A model generated the notes under the pieces. It saw only the letters and a program-made list of their open reading frames with translations, did no database searches and was not told where the DNA came from. 64,000 bases of DNA from Streptomyces nigrescens (GTDB lineage: Bacteria > Actinomycetota > Actinomycetes > Streptomycetales > Streptomycetaceae), in assembly GCA_024349765.1 (NCBI GenBank), contig AP026073.1, positions 558,001 to 622,000 of the forward strand, in the 5' to 3' direction. Shown piece after piece: positions 12,471-64,000 of the stretch; the stretch's first letter is position 1; every line of letters starts with the position of its first letter. A program made the position numbers and the translations under genes.

Positions 12471-13328
12471 ATGAAGCTGCTGCGTGTCGGAACGGTGGGG
12501 GCGGAACGCCCGGCGCTGCTCGACGAGGAAGGGGTCCTGCGGGACCTGTCGGGACTGGTGCCGGACATCGACGGAACGCTGCTCGCGGACGACGGGAAAC
12601 TCGCCCGGATCCGCGCCGCGGCGGCCGCCGGCGACCTGCCCGCGCTGGACGCCACCGGGCTGCGCACCGGTCCGCCGGTGGCCCGGATCGGCAAGATCGT
12701 GTGCATCGGGCTGAACTACCACGACCACGCCCGCGAGACCGGCGCCCCGACCCCCGAGGAGCCGATCATCTTCATGAAGGCCCCGGACACGGTCGTCGGG
12801 CCGGACGACACGGTGCTCGTGCCGCGCGGCAGCGTGAAGACCGACTGGGAGGTCGAGCTGGCGGTCGTCATCGGCCGTACCGCCCGCTACCTGGAGACCG
12901 ACGAGCAGGCGCTGGCGGCGGTGGCCGGTTACGCGGTGGCGCACGACGTCTCGGAGCGCGCCTTCCAGATCGAGCGCGGCGGCCAGTGGGACAAGGGCAA
13001 GAACTGCGAGACGTTCAACCCGCTGGGCCCGTGGCTGGTGACCGCCGACGAGATACCCGACCCGCAGGCCCTCGGCATCCGGCTGTGGGTCAACGGCGAC
13101 CTGAAGCAGGACGGCACGACCGCGGAGCAGATCTTCCCGGTGGCCGAAGTGGTCCGCTACGTCAGCCAGTTCATGACCCTGTACCCCGGCGACGTCATCA
13201 ACACCGGCACCCCGGCCGGTGTCGCGATGGGCCGGCCCGAACCCAAGCCGTACCTGAGGCCGGGCGATGTCGTCGAGCTCGAGATCGACGGACTGGGGCG
13301 TCAGCGGCAGCAGCTCAAGGCTGCCTGA
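12471..13328 (+). CDS. Fumarylacetoacetate hydrolase (FAH) family protein
   Basis: This 285-aa protein has the FAH C-terminal domain (about residues 70-283). KIVCIGLNYHDHARETG opens the domain, IIFMKAPDTVVGPDD follows, and the metal-binding Glu pair lies in DWEVELAVVIG. GDVINTGTPAGVAMG is the conserved C-terminal loop. Members are isomerases, hydrolases or decarboxylases of beta-diketo acids, e.g. 2-hydroxyhepta-2,4-diene-1,7-dioate isomerase. Substrate cannot be assigned. It is monocistronic, and its stop is followed immediately by the structured spacer at 13331-13818. Confidence 0.85.
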   Translation: MKLLRVGTVGAERPALLDEEGVLRDLSGLVPDIDGTLLADDGKLARIRAAAAAGDLPALDATGLRTGPPVARIGKIVCIGLNYHDHARETGAPTPEEPIIFMKAPDTVVGPDDTVLVPRGSVKTDWEVELAVVIGRTARYLETDEQALAAVAGYAVAHDVSERAFQIERGGQWDKGKNCETFNPLGPWLVTADEIPDPQALGIRLWVNGDLKQDGTTAEQIFPVAEVVRYVSQFMTLYPGDVINTGTPAGVAMGRPEPKPYLRPGDVVELEIDGLGRQRQQLKAA

Positions 13329-13330
13329 TT

Positions 13331-13818
13331 CCCACGTACCCGTCTGTCCCGCCGCGGGTGTTGTTCGCCGTGGCGCCTGCGGCGGGCTGGGTGGTTTGTG
13401 GGTGCGGTGACGGGCCTCCGGGGCCGGTTGTGTGGACTGCTGACGCTTTACGTCCACACAACCGGCCCCTCCGGCCCGTCCCCTCCCGTGAGAGGGGAAG
13501 AAAACGATGGTGGGGGTGCACGTAATGCCCACCCGCGCGCAGCCAAGAGACAACGCTCGCCCCCGACCAGCTCAGTAACTCCCACTCACGGGAGGGGGTG
13601 GACCGGAGGACGAAGTCTGGAGGGCCGGCACCGCACCCGACACACAAACGCCCGCCGCCAGGCGCAACGGCGAGACGACCCGCGGCGGGACAGACGGGTA
13701 CGTGCGGGGCGCCGCAAAGCGCGCAACGGCGACCAAGACCCGCGGCGAGAAAGCCAGGTACGTGGGAGGCGCCGCAAAGCGCAGCGCCCCGCGGCGGGAC
13801 GGCCAGGTACGTGGGGAG
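13331..13818. repeat. Structured convergent spacer: inverted repeat plus degenerate tandem units
   Basis: This spacer lies between the convergent FAH and Gfo/Idh/MocA genes. A perfect 27-bp inverted repeat pairs 13333-13359 with 13678-13704. Weaker inverted similarity continues inward to the CTCCGG/CTCCAG boundary. Toward the right end, three degenerate units beginning CGCGGCG and containing GGTACGTG start at 13681, 13741 and 13790. No convincing reading frame was found. The hairpin at 13420-13469 is annotated separately. Confidence 0.75.
13420..13469 (+). ncRNA. Conserved-loop hairpin element, copy 1
   Basis: A perfect 18-bp stem (GGGGCCGGTTGTGTGGAC) closes a 14-nt loop TGCTGACGCTTTAC. Two further copies with the identical loop but different, still perfectly paired stems occur at 53908-53957 and, on the other strand, at 54111-54160. 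CTCCGG precedes the stem, and a C-rich CCCCTCCCG block follows. Whether it acts as RNA (terminator, 3' stabiliser) or as a DNA palindrome is unknown. Confidence 0.7.
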
Positions 13819-14952
13819 TTAGCTCAGTGCAACGGTTCGGCCTTCTGTCGCCGAGCGCTTCGCGGCCTCCAGGACGCGGAGGGTGGCCGCGGCCTCGGTG
13901 GCGGTGACCGGGGGGTCGCCGCCTTCGCGGAGGGCGCGGGCGATCGCGGCGTAGTAGGCGGGGTAGTCGCCCGGGAGGGTGGGGACGGGGTCGCCGCCGC
14001 CCATTCGGGGGGAGGCGCCGGCACCGAGGCGGCCCCAGCAGGCCTTCGGCTCCACGCCCCACTCCACGTCCTCGTCGCCGGGGCGCCGGCCCTCGCGGAG
14101 GGCGGCCTCCTGGGGGTCGAGGCCGTGCTTGGTGTAGCCCGCCTTGCTGCCCAGCACCCGGAAGCGGGGGCCCAGCAGGGCGGCGGTGGCGCTCACCCAG
14201 AGGTGTGAGCGGACGCCGTTGGCGTGGGTGAGGGCGAGGAAGGTGTCGTCGTCGGCCTCGGCGCCGGGGCGGCGGACGTCGGACTCGGCGTAGACGGAGA
14301 CGACCGGGCCGAAGAGGGTCAGCGCCTGGTCGGCGAGGTGGCTGCCGAGGTCGTAGAGGAGACCGCCGATCTCGGCGGGGTCGCCGGACTCGCGCCAGCC
14401 GCCCTTGGGGGTCGGGCGCCAGCGCTCGAAGCGGGACTCGAAGCGCTGGACGTCGCCGAGGGCGCCCTCCTCGACGAGCTTGCGGACGGTGCGGAAGTCG
14501 TTGTCCCAGCGGCGGTTCTGGAAGACCGAGAGCAGCAGGCCGCGGTCGGCGGCGAGCGCGGCGAGCTTGTCGGCCTCCGCGGCCGTGGCGGCCAGCGGCT
14601 TGTCGACGACCACCGGCAGCCCGGCCTCCAACGCCGCGGTGGCGAGCGGCACATGGGTCTTGTTGGGCGACGCCACCACGATCAGGTCCAGCTCGGCGGC
14701 GCGGTCGAGGACCTCCTCGGCGGTGGGGACCGTCCGCACCTGCGGATGCTCGGCGCGGGCCTGCGCCTGCCGCTCCGGATTGCTGGTGGAGACGGTGTCG
14801 AGCAGCAGTCCATCGGTGGCCGCGATCAGCGGGGCGTGGAAGACGGAGCCGGCCAGGCCGTAGCCGAGCAGGCCGACCCGCAGGGGTGCGCCGGGGGAGC
14901 CGCCGTTCCGCTGCGGTGCGCCGATCGGGCTCTTCTCGCTCGTCTCACTCAT
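13819..14952 (-). CDS. Gfo/Idh/MocA-family oxidoreductase
   Basis: This 377-aa NAD(P)-dependent dehydrogenase has a Rossmann domain opening with VGLLGYGLAGSVFHAPLI (about residue 28). The catalytic-lysine motif is VVDKPLA (in place of EKP), followed by a C-terminal substrate domain with GGLLYDLGSHLADQ. Family members act on sugars, inositols and related compounds. ATG at 14952 is favoured; a GTG at 14961 would lie inside the operator. It is divergent from a ROK regulator around a perfect palindrome, suggesting sugar-responsive control. Confidence 0.88.
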   Translation of the reverse strand: MSETSEKSPIGAPQRNGGSPGAPLRVGLLGYGLAGSVFHAPLIAATDGLLLDTVSTSNPERQAQARAEHPQVRTVPTAEEVLDRAAELDLIVVASPNKTHVPLATAALEAGLPVVVDKPLAATAAEADKLAALAADRGLLLSVFQNRRWDNDFRTVRKLVEEGALGDVQRFESRFERWRPTPKGGWRESGDPAEIGGLLYDLGSHLADQALTLFGPVVSVYAESDVRRPGAEADDDTFLALTHANGVRSHLWVSATAALLGPRFRVLGSKAGYTKHGLDPQEAALREGRRPGDEDVEWGVEPKACWGRLGAGASPRMGGGDPVPTLPGDYPAYYAAIARALREGGDPPVTATEAAATLRVLEAAKRSATEGRTVALS

Positions 14953-14960
14953 GCCCACCA

Positions 14961-14983
14961 CTTAAGCAACGCTGTTGCTTAAG
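14961..14983. promoter_or_regulatory. Perfect palindrome, probable ROK operator
   Basis: CTTAAGCAAC-GCT-GTTGCTTAAG, with 10-bp perfect arms, sits between the divergent oxidoreductase and ROK genes. It is AT-rich against the background and 9 nt from the oxidoreductase start. Confidence 0.8.
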
Positions 14984-33600: not shown

Positions 33601-33674
33601 TGCGCCGCCAGGGACTCGAACCCCGGACCCGCTGATTAAGAGTCAGCTGCTCTAACCAACTGAGCTAGCGGCGC
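33601..33674 (-). tRNA. tRNA-Lys (CTT), copy 1
   Basis: This 74-nt tRNA without encoded CCA has acceptor stem GCGCCGC/GCGGCGC, a D-loop with AGTTGGTTAGAGC, anticodon stem CTGACT-CTT-AATCAG and T-arm GGTTCGAGTCC. The anticodon is CTT (lysine AAG). It is identical to the copies at 40592-40665 and 57745-57818. Confidence 0.97.
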
Positions 33675-40591: not shown

Positions 40592-40665
40592 TGCGCCGCC
40601 AGGGACTCGAACCCCGGACCCGCTGATTAAGAGTCAGCTGCTCTAACCAACTGAGCTAGCGGCGC
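40592..40665 (-). tRNA. tRNA-Lys (CTT), copy 2
   Basis: This 74-nt tRNA has anticodon CTT and no encoded CCA. It is base-for-base identical to the copies at 33601 and 57745. Confidence 0.97.
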
Positions 40666-43099: not shown

Positions 43100-43250
43100 C
43101 TGTATCCCCCTTCGGTTCTTCGTCGGCCGGGCGGGGAAGAGCCGCCGGGGGAATTCCGGTAGGGGCCCGGAATTCCCCCGGCGGCGTCCCCGCCGGTGAA
43201 TCGCCTTCAGTCTTGAACAGGCCGGCGGGGCGGCCAATGTCGGTTCGATG

Positions 43251-51813: not shown

Positions 51814-52545
51814 ATGGCATCGGTCGGCTTCCTCTACCCCGGCCACTCCGCGGAGGACGACTACCCCCGGCTCGAAACGCTCCTGGGCGGCGCGGTCCGC
51901 CTGCCGCTCGTGCACACCGACATCGGCGAGGACGCCCACCGGGCCGACGCGCTGCTGGAGATGGGCTCCGCGACCCGGCTGGCGGCCGGCGTCGACGAGC
52001 TGAAGGAACGCGGCGCCCAGGCCGTCGTCTGGGCCTGCACCAGCGCCAGCTTCATCTACGGCTGGGAGGGCGCCCACGAGCAGGTCCGCGAACTGTCCGC
52101 CACCGCCGGCCTGCCCGCCTCCAGTACGTCCTTCGCCTTCGCGCACGCCCTCCAGGCGCTCGGCGCCCGCCGGGTGGCGATCGCCGCGACCTACCCGGAC
52201 GACGTCGCCGAGTACTTCCGGGCGTTCTTGAAGTCCGCCGGGGCGGAGGTGGTCTCGACCCGCGGCAGCGGCATCATCACCGCCGCCGAGGTCGGCACCT
52301 GGGGCCGCGAGGAGGTCCTCGCGCTCGCCCGGGCCGGTGACCACCCCGACGCCGAGGCCGTCCTGCTCCCCGATACCGCCCTGCACACCGCCGCCCATCT
52401 GCCCGCCCTCGAAGCGGAGCTGCGCAAACCGGTGCTCACCGCCAATCAGGTGACGGCCTGGGAGGGCCTGCGCCTGCTGGACCGGCTGCTGTGCCGCCCG
52501 GCCCTGGGCACGCTGTTCGCGCGGACCGCGGGGGACACCGCCTAA
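51814..52545 (+). CDS. Maleate isomerase-like paralogue lacking the second cysteine
   Basis: This 243-aa protein belongs to the same family as the gene upstream. The first Cys is kept ([11 protein letters not shown]), but the region of the second reads [14 protein letters not shown], with no Cys. Related one-cysteine enzymes include decarboxylases and racemases, though AMDase keeps the other Cys. A changed reaction, or a partner role to the two-Cys protein, is therefore likely. GGGAGA precedes ATG at 51814; the gap to the previous gene is 146 bp. Confidence 0.82.
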
Positions 52546-52664
52546 CCAGGGTCTTCCCCTACGGGGATTCTCCGGGGCGGCCGCCGCCCGCCCCGGGAAT
52601 AAGTGGAGCACCTCTCCGGTTGTCGCCGGGGCAGACCTGGCGACACGAGGAGAGGACCCGCACC

Positions 52665-53795
52665 GTGAGCGGCGAAGACGACAAGCGGACCGGCGGCCCG
52701 ACGCAGCACGACGACGGCGACGGCATACGCGGCGTGGCCCGCGGCAGCGCGCCCGTGCCGCTGTCCGTGCTCGACCTGGTGACGGTCGGCGCCGGGCACA
52801 CCGCCGCCGGCGCCGTCCGCACCGCCGTCGACCTCGCCCGTACGGCCGAACGCCGCGGCTTCCACCGCTACTGGGTCGCCGAGCACCACTCCATGCCCGG
52901 TGTGGCCTCCTCCTCACCCGCGGTGCTGCTCGCCCACGTCGCCGCCCACACCGAACGCATCCGGCTCGGCTCCGGCGGCGTGATGCTGCCCAACCACGCC
53001 CCGCTGGTCATCGCCGAGCAGTTCGGCACCCTGGAGGCGATGGCCCCCGGCCGGATCGACCTGGGCCTGGGCCGCGCGCCGGGCACGGACGGCGCCACCG
53101 CCGCGGCCCTGCGGCGCACCGAGCGGCTGAACGAGGGCGCGGAGGACTTCCCGCAGCAGCTGGCCGAGTTGACCCGCTTCCTGGACGACACCTTCCCCGA
53201 CGGCCATCCGTACGCGCGGATCCACGCGGTGCCGGGACCGGTGCAGGCCACCTCGCCCGGCGGCGTGCAGTCCCCGCACCGCCCGCCCCTCTGGCTGCTC
53301 GGTTCCTCCGGCTTCAGCGCCCGGCTCGCCGGCTCGCTCGGCCTGCCGTTCGCCTTCGCGCACCACTTCTCCGCGGCCAACACCCTTCCCGCGCTCGACC
53401 TCTACCGCGCCTCCTTCCGTCCCTCCGAGGTTCTCGCCGAGCCGTACGCGCTGATCGGCGTCTCCGCGCTGGCCGCCGAGGACGAGCGGGAGGCCCGCCG
53501 CCAGGTCATGACCGGCGCGCTCGCGATGGTCCGGCTGCGCACCGGCCGCCCCGGCCTCGTCCCCAGCCCCGAGGAGGCCGAGGCGTACGCCTTCAACGAG
53601 CTGGAGCGCGGCTTCGTCGACAGCTGGCTGTCCAACGTCGTCCACGGCACCCCCGACGAGGTCCGCCAGGGCCTCGACGACCTCGCCAAGCGGACGGGCG
53701 CGGACGAGCTGATGATCACGTCCAACGCGCATGGCGGCGCGGCGCGGGTCCGCTCTTACGAGCTGATCGCCAATGCGTATGGCTTCGCCGGGTAG
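52665..53795 (+). CDS. LLM-class flavin-dependent monooxygenase
   Basis: This 376-aa luciferase-like TIM-barrel enzyme of the MsnO8-like group has [18 protein letters not shown] at the start, the [14 protein letters not shown] loop and the [16 protein letters not shown] segment. [13 protein letters not shown] and [14 protein letters not shown] follow. It uses reduced FMN and oxygen; the substrate is unknown. GTG at 52665 has AGGAGAGGA upstream. The stop TAG is followed directly by the long inverted-repeat spacer. Confidence 0.88.
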
Positions 53796-53907
53796 CCGTA
53801 CGTTTTCGGCTTTCCCGCCGTGGGGGCTGGGGTTCTTCCGCCTTCGGCGGGGTGGGGTTTAGGGCCGGGGGCGCCCGCTTGGTGGGTGGTGCCGGGTTCG
53901 GCCCTCC

Positions 53908-53957
53908 GGCGCCTGTTGTGTGGACTGCTGACGCTTTACGTCCACACAACAGGCGCC
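53908..53957 (+). ncRNA. Conserved-loop hairpin element, copy 2
   Basis: An 18-bp perfect stem (GGCGCCTGTTGTGTGGAC) carries the invariant 14-nt loop TGCTGACGCTTTAC. Outer stem bases differ from copy 1 (13420-13469) on both sides together, so pairing is preserved. Confidence 0.7.
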
Positions 53958-54009
53958 TCCGGGCCGCCCCCTCCCGTCCGGTGGGGCGCCCCCGCCCGGG
54001 GAGGGGTTG

Positions 54010-54054
54010 AGGGCCGGGTTCGGCCGCGCCCGAGGCGCGGCCGAACCCGGCCCT
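54010..54054. terminator. Strong central hairpin, probable terminator
   Basis: A 21-bp perfect stem with loop CGA is followed on the plus strand by TTGTCATTT. It sits at the middle of the inverted-repeat spacer and could stop transcription from both sides. Confidence 0.85.
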
Positions 54055-54110
54055 TGTCATTTCCCCCACCGGGCGGGGGCGCGGTTACCGGCCGCAGGGT
54101 GGGGGCCGTA

Positions 54111-54160
54111 GGGGGCGGGTTTCCGGACGTAAAGCGTCAGCAGTCCGGAAACCCGCCCCC
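54111..54160 (-). ncRNA. Conserved-loop hairpin element, copy 3
   Basis: On the minus strand this copy reads GGGGGCGGGTTTCCGGAC, the 14-nt loop TGCTGACGCTTTAC, then the exact complement. Stem length and loop match copies 1 and 2, while most stem bases differ by paired changes. Confidence 0.7.
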
Positions 54161-54277
54161 GGAGGACCACACCCGGCACCACCCACCAAGCGAGCGCCCC
54201 CGGCCCAACAACCCCCACGCCCGCCGAAGGCGGAAGAACCCCAGCCCCCACGGCGGGAAAGCCGAAAACGTACGGCG

Positions 54278-56128
54278 CTAAATAAAGAGCGCCGCGACCC
54301 GGTCCGGCGCTACGGGGCGAGAGTAGAGCCACCCCTGCCCCGTGTCGCAGCCGATGCGGCGAAGCCGCTCCGCCTGTTCGGCGCTTTCGACGCATTCGGC
54401 GGTGACCGTGAGCCCGAGACGGTGGGCGAGTGCCACCAGTGCCTCGACGATCATCTCGTCGGCCGGATTGGGGTGTTCCTGGGAGCGGAACCCGCGGACG
54501 AACGACCCGTCGAGCTTCAATACGGAAACCGGGAGGCGGCTGAGGTAGGCGAGGTTGGAGTAGCCGGTGCCGAAGTCGTCGATGGCGATCCGTACGCCCA
54601 TGTCGCTCAGCGCCTGGAGGGCCTGGAGCGGGCGGCCGGCGGAGCCCATGACCGCCGACTCGGTCAGTTCCAGCTGGAGCAGCCGCGGCGGGAGACCGGT
54701 CTCGGCGAGGATCCCGGCGACGTCCGCGACCAGGTCGGAGTCCCAGACCTGACGTACGGCCACATTGACGCTGACGAACAGCGGCCGGCCGTCGGGGTGC
54801 GCCAGCTGCCAGGCGCGGGCCTGGTGGCAGGCGCGTTCCAGGACCCACCGGCCCAGCTCGACGATCGCGCCGTTCTCCTCCGCCAGCGCGATGAACCGAT
54901 TCGGCGACAGCGTCCCGAACTGCGGGTGCCGCCACCGGACCAGCGCCTCCACGCCCTGCGCCCGGCCGTCCCCCAGTCCGACCAGTGGTTGGTACTCCAG
55001 GGTGAATTCGCCGCGGTCGACGGCCGGCCGAAGCGTGCTGGACAGCGCCTGGCGGGTCATCCGGTGGGCGTTGCGCTCCGGGTCGAAGAGCGTCCAGCGG
55101 GCCTTGCCGTCCTCCTTGGCCCAGTACAGCGTGGTGTCCGCGGCCTGCATCAGGCCGGTCGCGGTGGTGCCGCCGGCGGCCCGCTCCACCACGCCGATGC
55201 TGGCCGACACCGAGAGCCGCTGCCCGGCCAGGTCGAACGGGCGCTGCAGCGCGTCCAGCACGCACTGGGCCAGCTCGGCCAGCTGGTCGGTGCCGGTGGA
55301 GTCCTCCACCAGGAGGGCGAATTCGTCGCCGCCGAGCCGCGCCACCAGATGCCCGGTGCGGCCCGTGCCGCGGTCGTCGTCGGTCTCCGCGCAGCGCATC
55401 AGCCGCTGCGCCACCGCGCTGAGCAGCCGGTCGCCGACCCGGTGCCCGAGGGTGTCGTTGACGGCCTTGAAGCCGTCCAGGTCGAGGTAGCAGAGCCCGA
55501 TCCGGCCGGTGCCGGTCGCGTCGAAGGCGGCCGTTTCCAGGGCGGCGGCGAGCCGCTCGAAGAACAGCGCCCGGTTGGGCAGCCGGGTCACCGGGTCGTG
55601 CATCTGCAGGTGTCGCAGCCGGGCGAGCAGGTCGTGGCGGTCGCTGATGTCGGCCACCGACAGCAGCATCCGCTCCTCGCCGCTGAGCGGTTCCGGCGTC
55701 AGCGGCTCGACCGTCACTTCCACCCATACGGAGTGCCCCTCGGGGTGTTTGAGGCGGCGGGTGCAGCGCAGCCGGTCGCTGCGGCCGCACAGCACCTCGC
55801 GGTAGGCGGTCCACACCCGGGGGTCGGCACCCAGGTCGGTGAGGTCCGCCGCGGTCGCCGCCACCAGGTCCTCCGGGTCGGCGCCGACCAGCTCGCCGAA
55901 GGCGGGGTTGGCGGCCAGGACCAGTCCGTCGCGGTTGAGCACGGCCATCGCCAGCCGGCCCGCGTGGAAGGCGGCGCGGTAGTCGCCGAGGGAGGCGGCG
56001 GAGTCGTCGTGGCGGCCGGCCGGGGCGTGCCGGGCGTCGCCGGATTCTTTGGTGGTGCCGTTACGTTCCGTCACTGAGGGCAGCGTTGCTCCGGGCGTGC
56101 GGCCCGGGCCGTCGGGGTGTCCGCTCAC
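54278..56128 (-). CDS. PAS-GGDEF-EAL cyclic-di-GMP protein
   Basis: This is a 616-aa cytoplasmic protein. Residues 1-45 are low-complexity. A PAS/PAC sensor domain (about 45-170) is followed by a GGDEF domain with intact LGGDEFAL and by an EAL domain. The EAL domain has EALVRWRHP, the NV in SVNVAV, ELTES, the DDFGTGYSNL loop and KLDGSF, all consistent with phosphodiesterase chemistry. No RxxD inhibitory site precedes GGDEF. From memory the architecture and neighbourhood fit SCO2817, a homologue of the RmdA/Cdg set that times Streptomyces development. GTG at 56128 has GGGAG upstream. Confidence 0.88.
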   Translation of the reverse strand: MSGHPDGPGRTPGATLPSVTERNGTTKESGDARHAPAGRHDDSAASLGDYRAAFHAGRLAMAVLNRDGLVLAANPAFGELVGADPEDLVAATAADLTDLGADPRVWTAYREVLCGRSDRLRCTRRLKHPEGHSVWVEVTVEPLTPEPLSGEERMLLSVADISDRHDLLARLRHLQMHDPVTRLPNRALFFERLAAALETAAFDATGTGRIGLCYLDLDGFKAVNDTLGHRVGDRLLSAVAQRLMRCAETDDDRGTGRTGHLVARLGGDEFALLVEDSTGTDQLAELAQCVLDALQRPFDLAGQRLSVSASIGVVERAAGGTTATGLMQAADTTLYWAKEDGKARWTLFDPERNAHRMTRQALSSTLRPAVDRGEFTLEYQPLVGLGDGRAQGVEALVRWRHPQFGTLSPNRFIALAEENGAIVELGRWVLERACHQARAWQLAHPDGRPLFVSVNVAVRQVWDSDLVADVAGILAETGLPPRLLQLELTESAVMGSAGRPLQALQALSDMGVRIAIDDFGTGYSNLAYLSRLPVSVLKLDGSFVRGFRSQEHPNPADEMIVEALVALAHRLGLTVTAECVESAEQAERLRRIGCDTGQGWLYSRPVAPDRVAALFI

Positions 56129-56435
56129 TGCTCGCTCCCGCTTGGCGCTTGTCTCGTGATGGAGGGGGGATCCCGCGCTGGAAAGTGTGGCGATCATAGA
56201 GGCTGGCACGAGGGCCGATCCAGCGACGCAGCCGTGCTCCCCGGCCCACATGACGGAACTTCAGCCATTTCTGCCCGGCTCTGTTCGCGGCGATTGCCCC
56301 GTTGGTCGATTGTGACTGTCCGTTACGGGGCGGTGGAGACGCGCCGATCACTCGTCTGGGCCCCGGAAACAGGACGAATAGCATTAAATCGCCACAGGGT
56401 AGATGAGGTCCCCGAATCCGTCCCTGGAGGTCCGT

Positions 56436-57744: not shown

Positions 57745-57818
57745 TGCGCCGCCAGGGACTCGAACCCCGGACCCGCTGATTAAGAGTCAGCTGCTCTAAC
57801 CAACTGAGCTAGCGGCGC
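57745..57818 (-). tRNA. tRNA-Lys (CTT), copy 3
   Basis: This 74-nt tRNA has anticodon CTT and no encoded CCA. It is identical to the copies at 33601 and 40592. Confidence 0.97.
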
Positions 57819-63781: not shown

Positions 63782-63890
63782 ATCGGGCGTGGATCTGGCT
63801 TGGCACGGGTGGGTGGGGCGGAGGCGCGGGCCGCGGGAGGGGGGCGGGGAAGGGGGCCGGGTGCGGCGAGGGAGGGGCCGGAGGCTTCCC

Positions 63891-63929
63891 CCGCCCCCTC
63901 CCCCTCTCCCCCTTCGGGGGAGGGGGCGG
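63891..63929. terminator. GC-rich terminator-like palindrome
   Basis: A 13-bp stem CCGCCCCCTCCCC/GGGGAGGGGGCGG with a C-rich loop ending CCTTC. The rest of 63782-64000 is G/C-rich and holds no gene that I can support. Confidence 0.6.
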
Positions 63930-64000
63930 GGGGTGGGTTCGGGGGTGGGGGGAAGCGGAGGCGCAGCGCACGGCCCCGGCGGGCGAGCGCGAGGTGCCTG

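Follow-up and report, generated by a model that had tools for sequence, protein, structure and literature searches.

The hairpin that recurs three times in the analysed window, a stretch of 64,000 nucleotides (G000:C1:558001-622000, where G000 is the window's own genome), is the core of a larger imperfect palindromic DNA repeat of about 480 bp, which is present in dozens of copies at gene ends in one branch of Streptomyces. We consider it probable that these repeats form a non-coding palindromic family similar to BIME/REP elements, which was recognised as folded DNA and formerly mobile and is now mostly inherited in place and homogenised by recombination. Among the readings offered with the original prediction, a palindromic REP-like element therefore fits best, in view of the dispersed mosaic palindrome, the inverted hairpin pairs and the location at gene ends, whereas a structured RNA at mRNA 3′ ends has lost ground.

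Hairpins and palindromic elements in the window

All three predicted hairpins were recovered with perfect 18-bp stems, which differ from each other and are fully paired, and with the identical 14-nt loop TGCTGACGCTTTAC (exact at 13438-13451 and 53926-53939 on the plus strand and at 54129-54142 on the minus strand). They are among only eight perfect hairpins in the window with a stem of at least 14 bp and a loop of 3-20 nt. However, they do not represent three stand-alone copies, since the second and third are the two arms of one element. The features are as follows:

13331..13815, no strand: element A, long/short type, CCCACGTAC...GTACGTGGG (repeat alignment, end patterns)
13409..13480, plus: full hairpin of element A, with outer 8-bp helix, TCC/TCC internal loop, 18-bp helix and loop (covariation alignment and folding)
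13420..13469, plus: long hairpin of element A, perfect 18-bp stem (sequence, stem count)
13438..13451, plus: loop T-GC-TGAC-GC-TTTAC, reading GTAAA-GC-GTCA-GC-A on the other strand (exact match, loop census)
13604..13622, minus: short hairpin GAC-TTC-GTC, mirror position in the second arm of element A, G000:C1:571604-571622 (short-hairpin pattern)
13705..13815, no strand: extra terminal modules at the right end of element A, each ending TACGTGG-like (end-pattern matches, ACGT positions)
53796..54274, no strand: element B, long/long type, CCGTACGT...ACGTACGG (sequence, self-reverse-complement match)
53908..53957, plus: long hairpin, left arm of element B (sequence, stem count)
54010..54054, no strand: central perfect hairpin of element B, 21-bp stem and 3-nt loop (perfect-hairpin scan)
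54111..54160, minus: long hairpin, right arm of element B (sequence, stem count)

The partly shared flanks, CTCCGG before and CCCCTCCCG after the hairpin, are in part structure, as they contribute to the TCC/TCC internal loop and to the outer 8-bp helix beyond it (GACGGGCC/GGCCCGTC, 13409-13416 / 13473-13480). Together with 2 nt on its left and 3 nt on its right, element A makes up the whole gap between the stop codons of two convergent genes (12471-13328, plus, and 13819-14961, minus), which encode a FAA hydrolase and a Gfo/Idh/MocA oxidoreductase. This intergenic strand (490 nt) folds as one long palindrome with -191.9 kcal/mol as DNA (z -13.2), and the right end of the element carries three end-pattern matches (G000:C1:571683-571704, 571743-571764 and 571792-571813, all minus). 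Element B likewise lies between the stop codons of its neighbouring genes (52491-53795, plus, and 54278-56251, minus) and aligns with its reverse complement along its entire length at 82%. The GC-rich element does contain open reading frames, as such sequence mechanically will, but we took them not to be genes, given that the homologous flanking genes end at its boundaries.

Two further long perfect hairpins in the window, at 43141-43185 (19-bp stem, 7-nt loop) and 63888-63932 (17-bp stem, 11-nt loop), do not carry the family loop. Rfam gave no match to the hairpin at gathering score and reported only three tRNA genes in the window (33601-33674, 40592-40665 and 57745-57818, all on the minus strand), which have identical scores and are spread over 24 kb.

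Copies, distribution and gene context

The G000 assembly consists of two contigs with a total of 9.33 Mb, of which C1 comprises 8.25 Mb. Its exact 16-nt core CTGCTGACGCTTTACG occurs 64 times, 31 times forward and 33 times reverse, always on C1 and never in the reversed control, and a query of 350 bp from the window gave at least 40 full-length matches, itself included (40 scored of 141 candidates). In 61 of the 64 copies the perfect stem is exactly 18 bp, with pair 19 broken; a one-sided mismatch is found in the other three (L001, L023 and L045). Only eight distinct stems are used, and 49 copies share the same left arm. A short hairpin follows within 370 bp downstream of 46 of the 64 long hairpins and a second, inverted long one in six; the short-hairpin pattern has 53 matches in this genome. 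In general, a copy is a palindrome with the ends CCCACGTAC..GTACGTGGG or CCGTACGT..ACGTACGG and mosaic inner blocks drawn from a few alternatives, has one hairpin per arm (both long, or a long one paired with a short GAC-TTC-GTC one), and in some cases has extra terminal modules. Some copies are truncated or without a partner.

Several further observations concern individual places. Only one of the 64 copies lies within G000:C1:2618540-4316174, an interval which by interpolated synteny corresponds to about 0.5 Mb in S. endophytica, and contig C2 has none. At L009 and L041 inverted repeats are also seen in the host sequence outside the element (e.g. TTTGACG..GTCAAA), which gives the impression of an element lying within an older hairpin, but such flanks are not significantly enriched among 31 elements (95 of 500 shuffles reached the observed level). 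Moreover, a sequence of about 50 bp, GCTTCGCTTCCAA..GGCGGAGC..CGGAGC or its reverse complement, is located inside the hairpin near the loop at L005 (G000:C1 ~262,000) and, in S. endophytica, at L128 (a minus-strand copy) and L290, hence at different sites in both species. It seems to be a second small repeat which inserts into the folded loop.

A search of Streptomyces genomes for the loop with paired flanks, as proposed with the original prediction, found the generalised family in 15 of 392 sampled genomes. The exact 14-nt loop occurs in five of these 392, forming hairpins in G000 (64) and G194 (17); lone matches in G010, G051 and G316 lack a stem, lie in coding-like sequence and were discarded. 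The generalised pattern GACTGCN{2,8}GCTTTACGTC matched in 17 genomes, with stems in the loci read for 15 (G194 76 matches, G000 69, G064 50, G311 49, G175 29, G390 25, G191 24, G348 17, G294 14, G265 10, G303 2, G263 2 and G060, G137 and G086 1 each), and its reversed control gave one match each in three genomes. G035 and G049 were rejected as carriers, their stems being merely 4 and 3 bp, and the family as such was not found in 377 genomes. In G137, the element frame is matched many times (69 BLAST pieces) but the long hairpin once, and at L300 and L335 the short GGAC-TTC-GTCC type occupies both arms (G137 loci L300, L335 and L338). An order-wide search with a stricter pattern found 15 of 293 genomes, all within the genus, and none of the 20 sampled genomes outside it. 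In GTDB R220, a search which may leave out records of the window's own genome, an exact 22-mer was present in Streptomyces endophytica HNM0140, Streptomyces sp. NRRL S-337 and NRRL F-4489 (one stretch); in the last, the same loop frame caps stems of different sequence, measuring 32, 29 and 18 bp, and one further stem is broken. An origin from viruses or plasmids was rejected, as viral contigs contained no exact match of a 20-mer and only one of 72,556 plasmid records matched partially (34% of the query).

For the analysis of gene context and stems we used a sample of 237 hairpins from 17 genomes, taking the first places per genome for the other species. Gene orientations were taken from a predictor of our own, based on codon scores and trained on the window, and hairpins were counted singly, so that paired ones count twice. 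The prediction that all copies sit between convergent genes is true of the three window hairpins, but of the 208 hairpins in the sample that could be placed 119 are convergent, 80 tandem and 9 divergent; as a baseline, the 48 neighbouring gene pairs of the window comprise 9 convergent, 30 tandem and 9 divergent ones. Only two of the 237 overlap a predicted gene. Of the element ends that face a stop codon, 54 of 90 in G000 and 81 of 162 elsewhere have their first ACGT no more than 15 nt from that codon.

This enrichment at gene 3′ ends, with few divergent sites, and the position of the elements near stop codons on both sides, as if old 3′ ends had been replaced, would suit a structured RNA at mRNA 3′ ends, which might terminate transcription (perhaps from both sides), direct processing or stabilise the transcript, its loop being read by an RNA-binding protein. 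We regard such a role as unlikely, though together with the RNA energy model and the wobble lean described below, the placement at gene ends keeps it a live rival. In tandem contexts of G000 there is no strand preference, the long hairpin being sense in 14 cases and antisense in 12, and the RNA reading is weakened by this symmetry as well as by the opposite arm found at four orthologous sites (see below). Furthermore, the stem is followed by TCCGGCCCGTCCCCTCCCG or a sequence near it, and the copies inspected had no U tract 3′ of the hairpin of the kind found in Rho-independent terminators.

The enrichment between convergent genes and the spread of 64 copies over much of contig C1 (none on C2) could also point to a chromosome-organising site, at which a putative nucleoid or topology protein would act on hairpins between converging transcription units, in analogy to gyrase and IHF, which bind E. 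coli BIMEs. We consider this improbable: a stretch of 1.7 Mb between 2.62 and 4.32 Mb holds but one copy, and the absence of the family from 377 of the 392 sampled genomes of the genus argues against any general need for such a site.

Stem covariation and loop grammar

The original prediction interpreted stem changes with preserved pairing as constraint on a folded structure, and this interpretation gained support from covariation far above both shuffled and slid controls and from the recurrence of the GGAC/GTCC closing end and the loop frame. We aligned 83 distinct hairpins of the 84 listed (L067 was left out), gapping stems longer or shorter than 18 bp. Conservation of TGC, GCTTTAC, GAC and GTC in this set is partly by construction because the collecting pattern fixes these letters, while the outer stem and the tip were left free. 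There were 347 double-changed cells compared to a shuffled mean of 122, and 91.1% of cells were paired compared to 74.9%; the covariation score was 0.362 compared to 0.097 in shuffled and at most 0.063 in slid controls, where the shuffle comparison is inflated by relatedness and the slid control keeps relatedness but favours structure derived from the same sequences. Double changes affected 18 of 28 pairs, against a mean of 14.4 in shuffled alignments, 7 of 500 of which reached this number. Among distinct 18-bp arm pairs, 34 of 75 are perfectly complementary. The stem is 18 bp in 153 of the 237 sampled hairpins, and likewise in the second hairpin of L129, and in some genomes closure of the internal loop extends it to 29-38 bp, with 29 bp in L182.

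That every stem change is matched on the other side is correct for the three window stems, which are fully paired, but not genome-wide, as is evident from the three mismatched copies in G000 and from one-arm changes between orthologs (see below). Compensatory change is also weaker evidence than assumed because copies are homogenised within a genome, and hairpin-templated repair could match the arms as well.

The loop itself proved less constant than predicted: the exact sequence is shared only by the nearest relatives, and the tip varies across the family. For a loop census over 353 loci, most of them fetched by patterns that fix the loop frame and leave the tip free, we required a GGAC..GTCC closing, a perfect stem of at least 10 bp and a loop of 9-18 nt, and collapsed exact 120-nt contexts. 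Six kinds of family tip were observed, TGAC (107), TTC (97, one in a loop ending CCTAC), TGC (26), TGTC (10), TGGC (1) and TCC (1), which rules out a family-wide invariant 14-mer; non-family loops comprised one unrelated sequence found three times and four singletons. All family tips in the census and all 237 sampled hairpins of the 17 genomes follow the rule T-N(1-2)-C, which reads G-N(1-2)-A on the complementary strand and is closed by C-G. The tetraloops among them, GTCA, GACA and GCCA, have a C at position 3 and do not have the purine of RNA GNRA loops, which speaks against an RNA role. Tetraloops of the type d(cGNNAg) are a class of stable DNA loops. Likewise, d(GNA) triloops closed by C-G have been described as a stable DNA family resembling RNA GNRA loops (PMC5815330). 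The tip class d(GNA)/d(GNNA) and the C at position 3, which does not fit GNRA, therefore favour DNA as the molecule that would be folded.

Energy models were divided on the GC/GC mini-stem within the loop. With DNA parameters it was absent from the full hairpin and formed in one of eight loop oligos of 21-22 nt, whereas with RNA parameters it formed in the full hairpin on both strands. The high stability of both RNA strands, with the mini-stem, would suit an RNA role, as would stems with one or two mismatches, in which wobble-compatible changes lean to one strand (11 versus 5, 20 neither).

Inheritance, mobility and comparison with known systems

The sites are old, and most copies are now inherited in place while sequence is exchanged between them. 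Flanks of G000 and S. endophytica are mostly 92-99% identical, and a 9-kb query matches S. endophytica as a whole at 95% and NRRL S-337 in pieces, with a contig end inside the element. The flanks of element A match all of 30 other genomes at one or both sides, with the element uncovered among the matches listed. The site of element A was sought in 14 carriers and read in 12 (all but G303 and G060; the right flank is missing in G265, G263 and G086). G191, G311 and F-4489 have long hairpins there and G137 has two short ones; the hairpin is absent or a remnant in G175 and G390, and nothing is recognisable in the shown part of G348, G294 and G064. The 56-bp unaligned gap in G348 was rejected as a clean empty site, as the alignment is too poor for a junction, and the short intervals read in S. 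endophytica were mostly remnants (see below).

For 42 of the 64 copies in G000, S. endophytica has an orthologous loop in the same orientation. Of the corresponding stems 25 are identical, 12 differ in one arm only, three differ in both arms with at least one imperfect, and two show paired changes; one-arm changes are therefore common and tolerated. A mismatched T10>C variant of the left arm occurs at eight S. endophytica sites, whose G000 orthologs do not carry it. Of the remaining 22 copies, 17 with both flanks located were re-read, the other five lying outside this re-reading: four have the long hairpin in the opposite arm, three have two short hairpins, seven have short intervals (two of them inside a longer element) and three are of other kinds. 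Five of the short intervals in S. endophytica were read letter by letter and proved to be four deletion remnants and one ambiguous case, with no fresh insertion seen at these five G000 sites. Since one-arm changes exceed paired changes (12 to 2), one variant is shared by eight sites and arms are swapped at four, copies exchange sequence, and the strand is not kept. Both these arm swaps and the persistence of short/short and hairpin-less forms at the same sites count against an RNA role.

The same observations raise the possibility of a neutral palindromic repeat, in which pairing is maintained by hairpin-templated repair (template switching) and gene conversion only and the loop is unread today. 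It is consistent with the excess of one-arm changes, which keeps it a live rival, with the mismatched variant at eight sites and with chimeric arms in S. endophytica L154 and NRRL S-337 L175. We nevertheless find this account doubtful, if somewhat less so than an RNA role, as the GTAAA/A bulge, the GC/GC mini-stem and the T-N(1-2)-C tip are kept over 17 genomes despite very different stems (the letters of bulge and mini-stem being fixed by the pattern and the tip free), and as it leaves the usual 18-bp stem unexplained.

A formerly mobile DNA hairpin is favoured because of the palindromic dispersal, the loop grammar, the strand symmetry and the arm swaps. According to this model, one DNA strand, extruded or single-stranded during replication, would fold into a long stem of free sequence with GGAC/GTCC at its closing end, topped by the fixed asymmetric loop GTAAA-GC-GN(N)A-GC-A, which an enzyme or other protein may be able to read. 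Recognition of the loop would have spread copies in the past, and today most copies would be inherited in place, with recombination among copies making them alike and reshuffling them, which would explain the mosaic flanks, the stems preferred throughout a genome and the swapped hairpins. Convergent genes should generate positive rather than negative supercoiling, which disfavours extrusion. A more specific version is possible, which we advance tentatively: a DNA-hairpin family orphaned of its transposase, in which the recognised feature would be a three-dimensional DNA loop (GTAAA bulge, GC mini-stem and d(GNA)/d(GNNA) tip) on an arbitrary stem, targeting sites adjacent to stop codons, and in which long and short cassettes would be exchanged between arms and sites by an enzyme processing single-stranded DNA.

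A RAYT/Y1 transposase was rejected as the present mobiliser: Y1 (PF01797) genes are missing from 14 of the 15 carrier genomes, and the 3.36 kb around the sole one, in G194 (L219), contain neither a family hairpin nor a short hairpin nor an element end; in this respect the family departs from REPs, where such a gene is flanked by the repeats. A MITE with target-site duplication was rejected as well, since the longest flanking direct repeats averaged no more than shuffled ones (2.65 versus 2.89 nt; 31 of the 55 copies with usable ends, of 64, with boundaries uncertain by a few nt).

The family represents an unusually clean natural set, in which the loop frame and pairing are kept, stem letters are free and close sister genomes are available, and which allows selection, gene conversion and hairpin repair to be separated. 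Its loop grammar points to a reader at the DNA level. Moreover, it illustrates that strong covariation in a repeat family is by itself no proof of a functional RNA. We found no published description of it in the open-access literature; open-access papers with short strings of the loop concern other subjects, judged by title, and in PMC3733652, PMC12306157, PMC10969869 and PMC2817692, which deal with REPs and MITEs, the main text does not contain the word Streptomyces (for further background see PMC3765725).

With bidirectional intrinsic terminators the family shares GC-rich hairpins past the stop codons of convergent genes, and in E. coli most inverted repeats downstream of stop codons are terminators (PMC6060812); it differs in its conserved loop, the 480-bp repeat context, swaps of arm orientation and the lack of a U tract. 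Like MITEs and RU-like sequences, it is non-coding, dispersed and mostly intergenic, with terminal inverted repeats and no gene of its own. In contrast to these, it showed no target-site duplication and yielded no parent IS in a transposase search that covered Y1 genes; it also contains internal hairpins with a conserved loop and ends near stop codons. CGTC-tagged REPs are also palindromic, form mostly inverted dimers and have been described as devoid of a dedicated transposase (PMC3733652), but they have 8-9-bp stems, 4-5-nt loops and a CGTC tag at the foot, and the five phyla named for them do not include actinomycetes. The foot of our hairpin is CTCC/TCCG (GGAG on the other strand), without GTAG or CGTC in the copies shown, and GGAG is at most a candidate for a variant tag. 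BIMEs, REP doublets and REPINs are short palindromes in inverted pairs with a linker, mostly extragenic, mosaic, lineage-specific and present in tens of copies, and dimers whose units differ in their loops have been described in Enterobacteriaceae (PMC3733652, PMC2817692); our palindromic unit likewise occurs in inverted pairs (long/long or long/short), mostly extragenic. Its 13-14-nt loop fits the REP range of 2-20 nt tabulated in PMC3733652, and its stem, usually 18 and up to 38 bp, exceeds the range of 5-13 bp given there. Compared with BIMEs and REPs, the family keeps a 13-14-nt loop frame on a free stem within an enclosing palindrome of about 480 bp.

BIMEs/REPs, CGTC-tagged REPs and MITEs are the nearest known families, REPs and MITEs each differing from ours in at least one tested defining feature. 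At IS200/IS605 ends, integron attC sites and the promoter hairpins of the N4 virion RNA polymerase, a protein reads a hairpin with fixed unpaired features and a freer stem. With such folded-DNA recognition sites the family would have in common fixed unpaired hairpin features on a freer stem and stable DNA loops of the GNA type.
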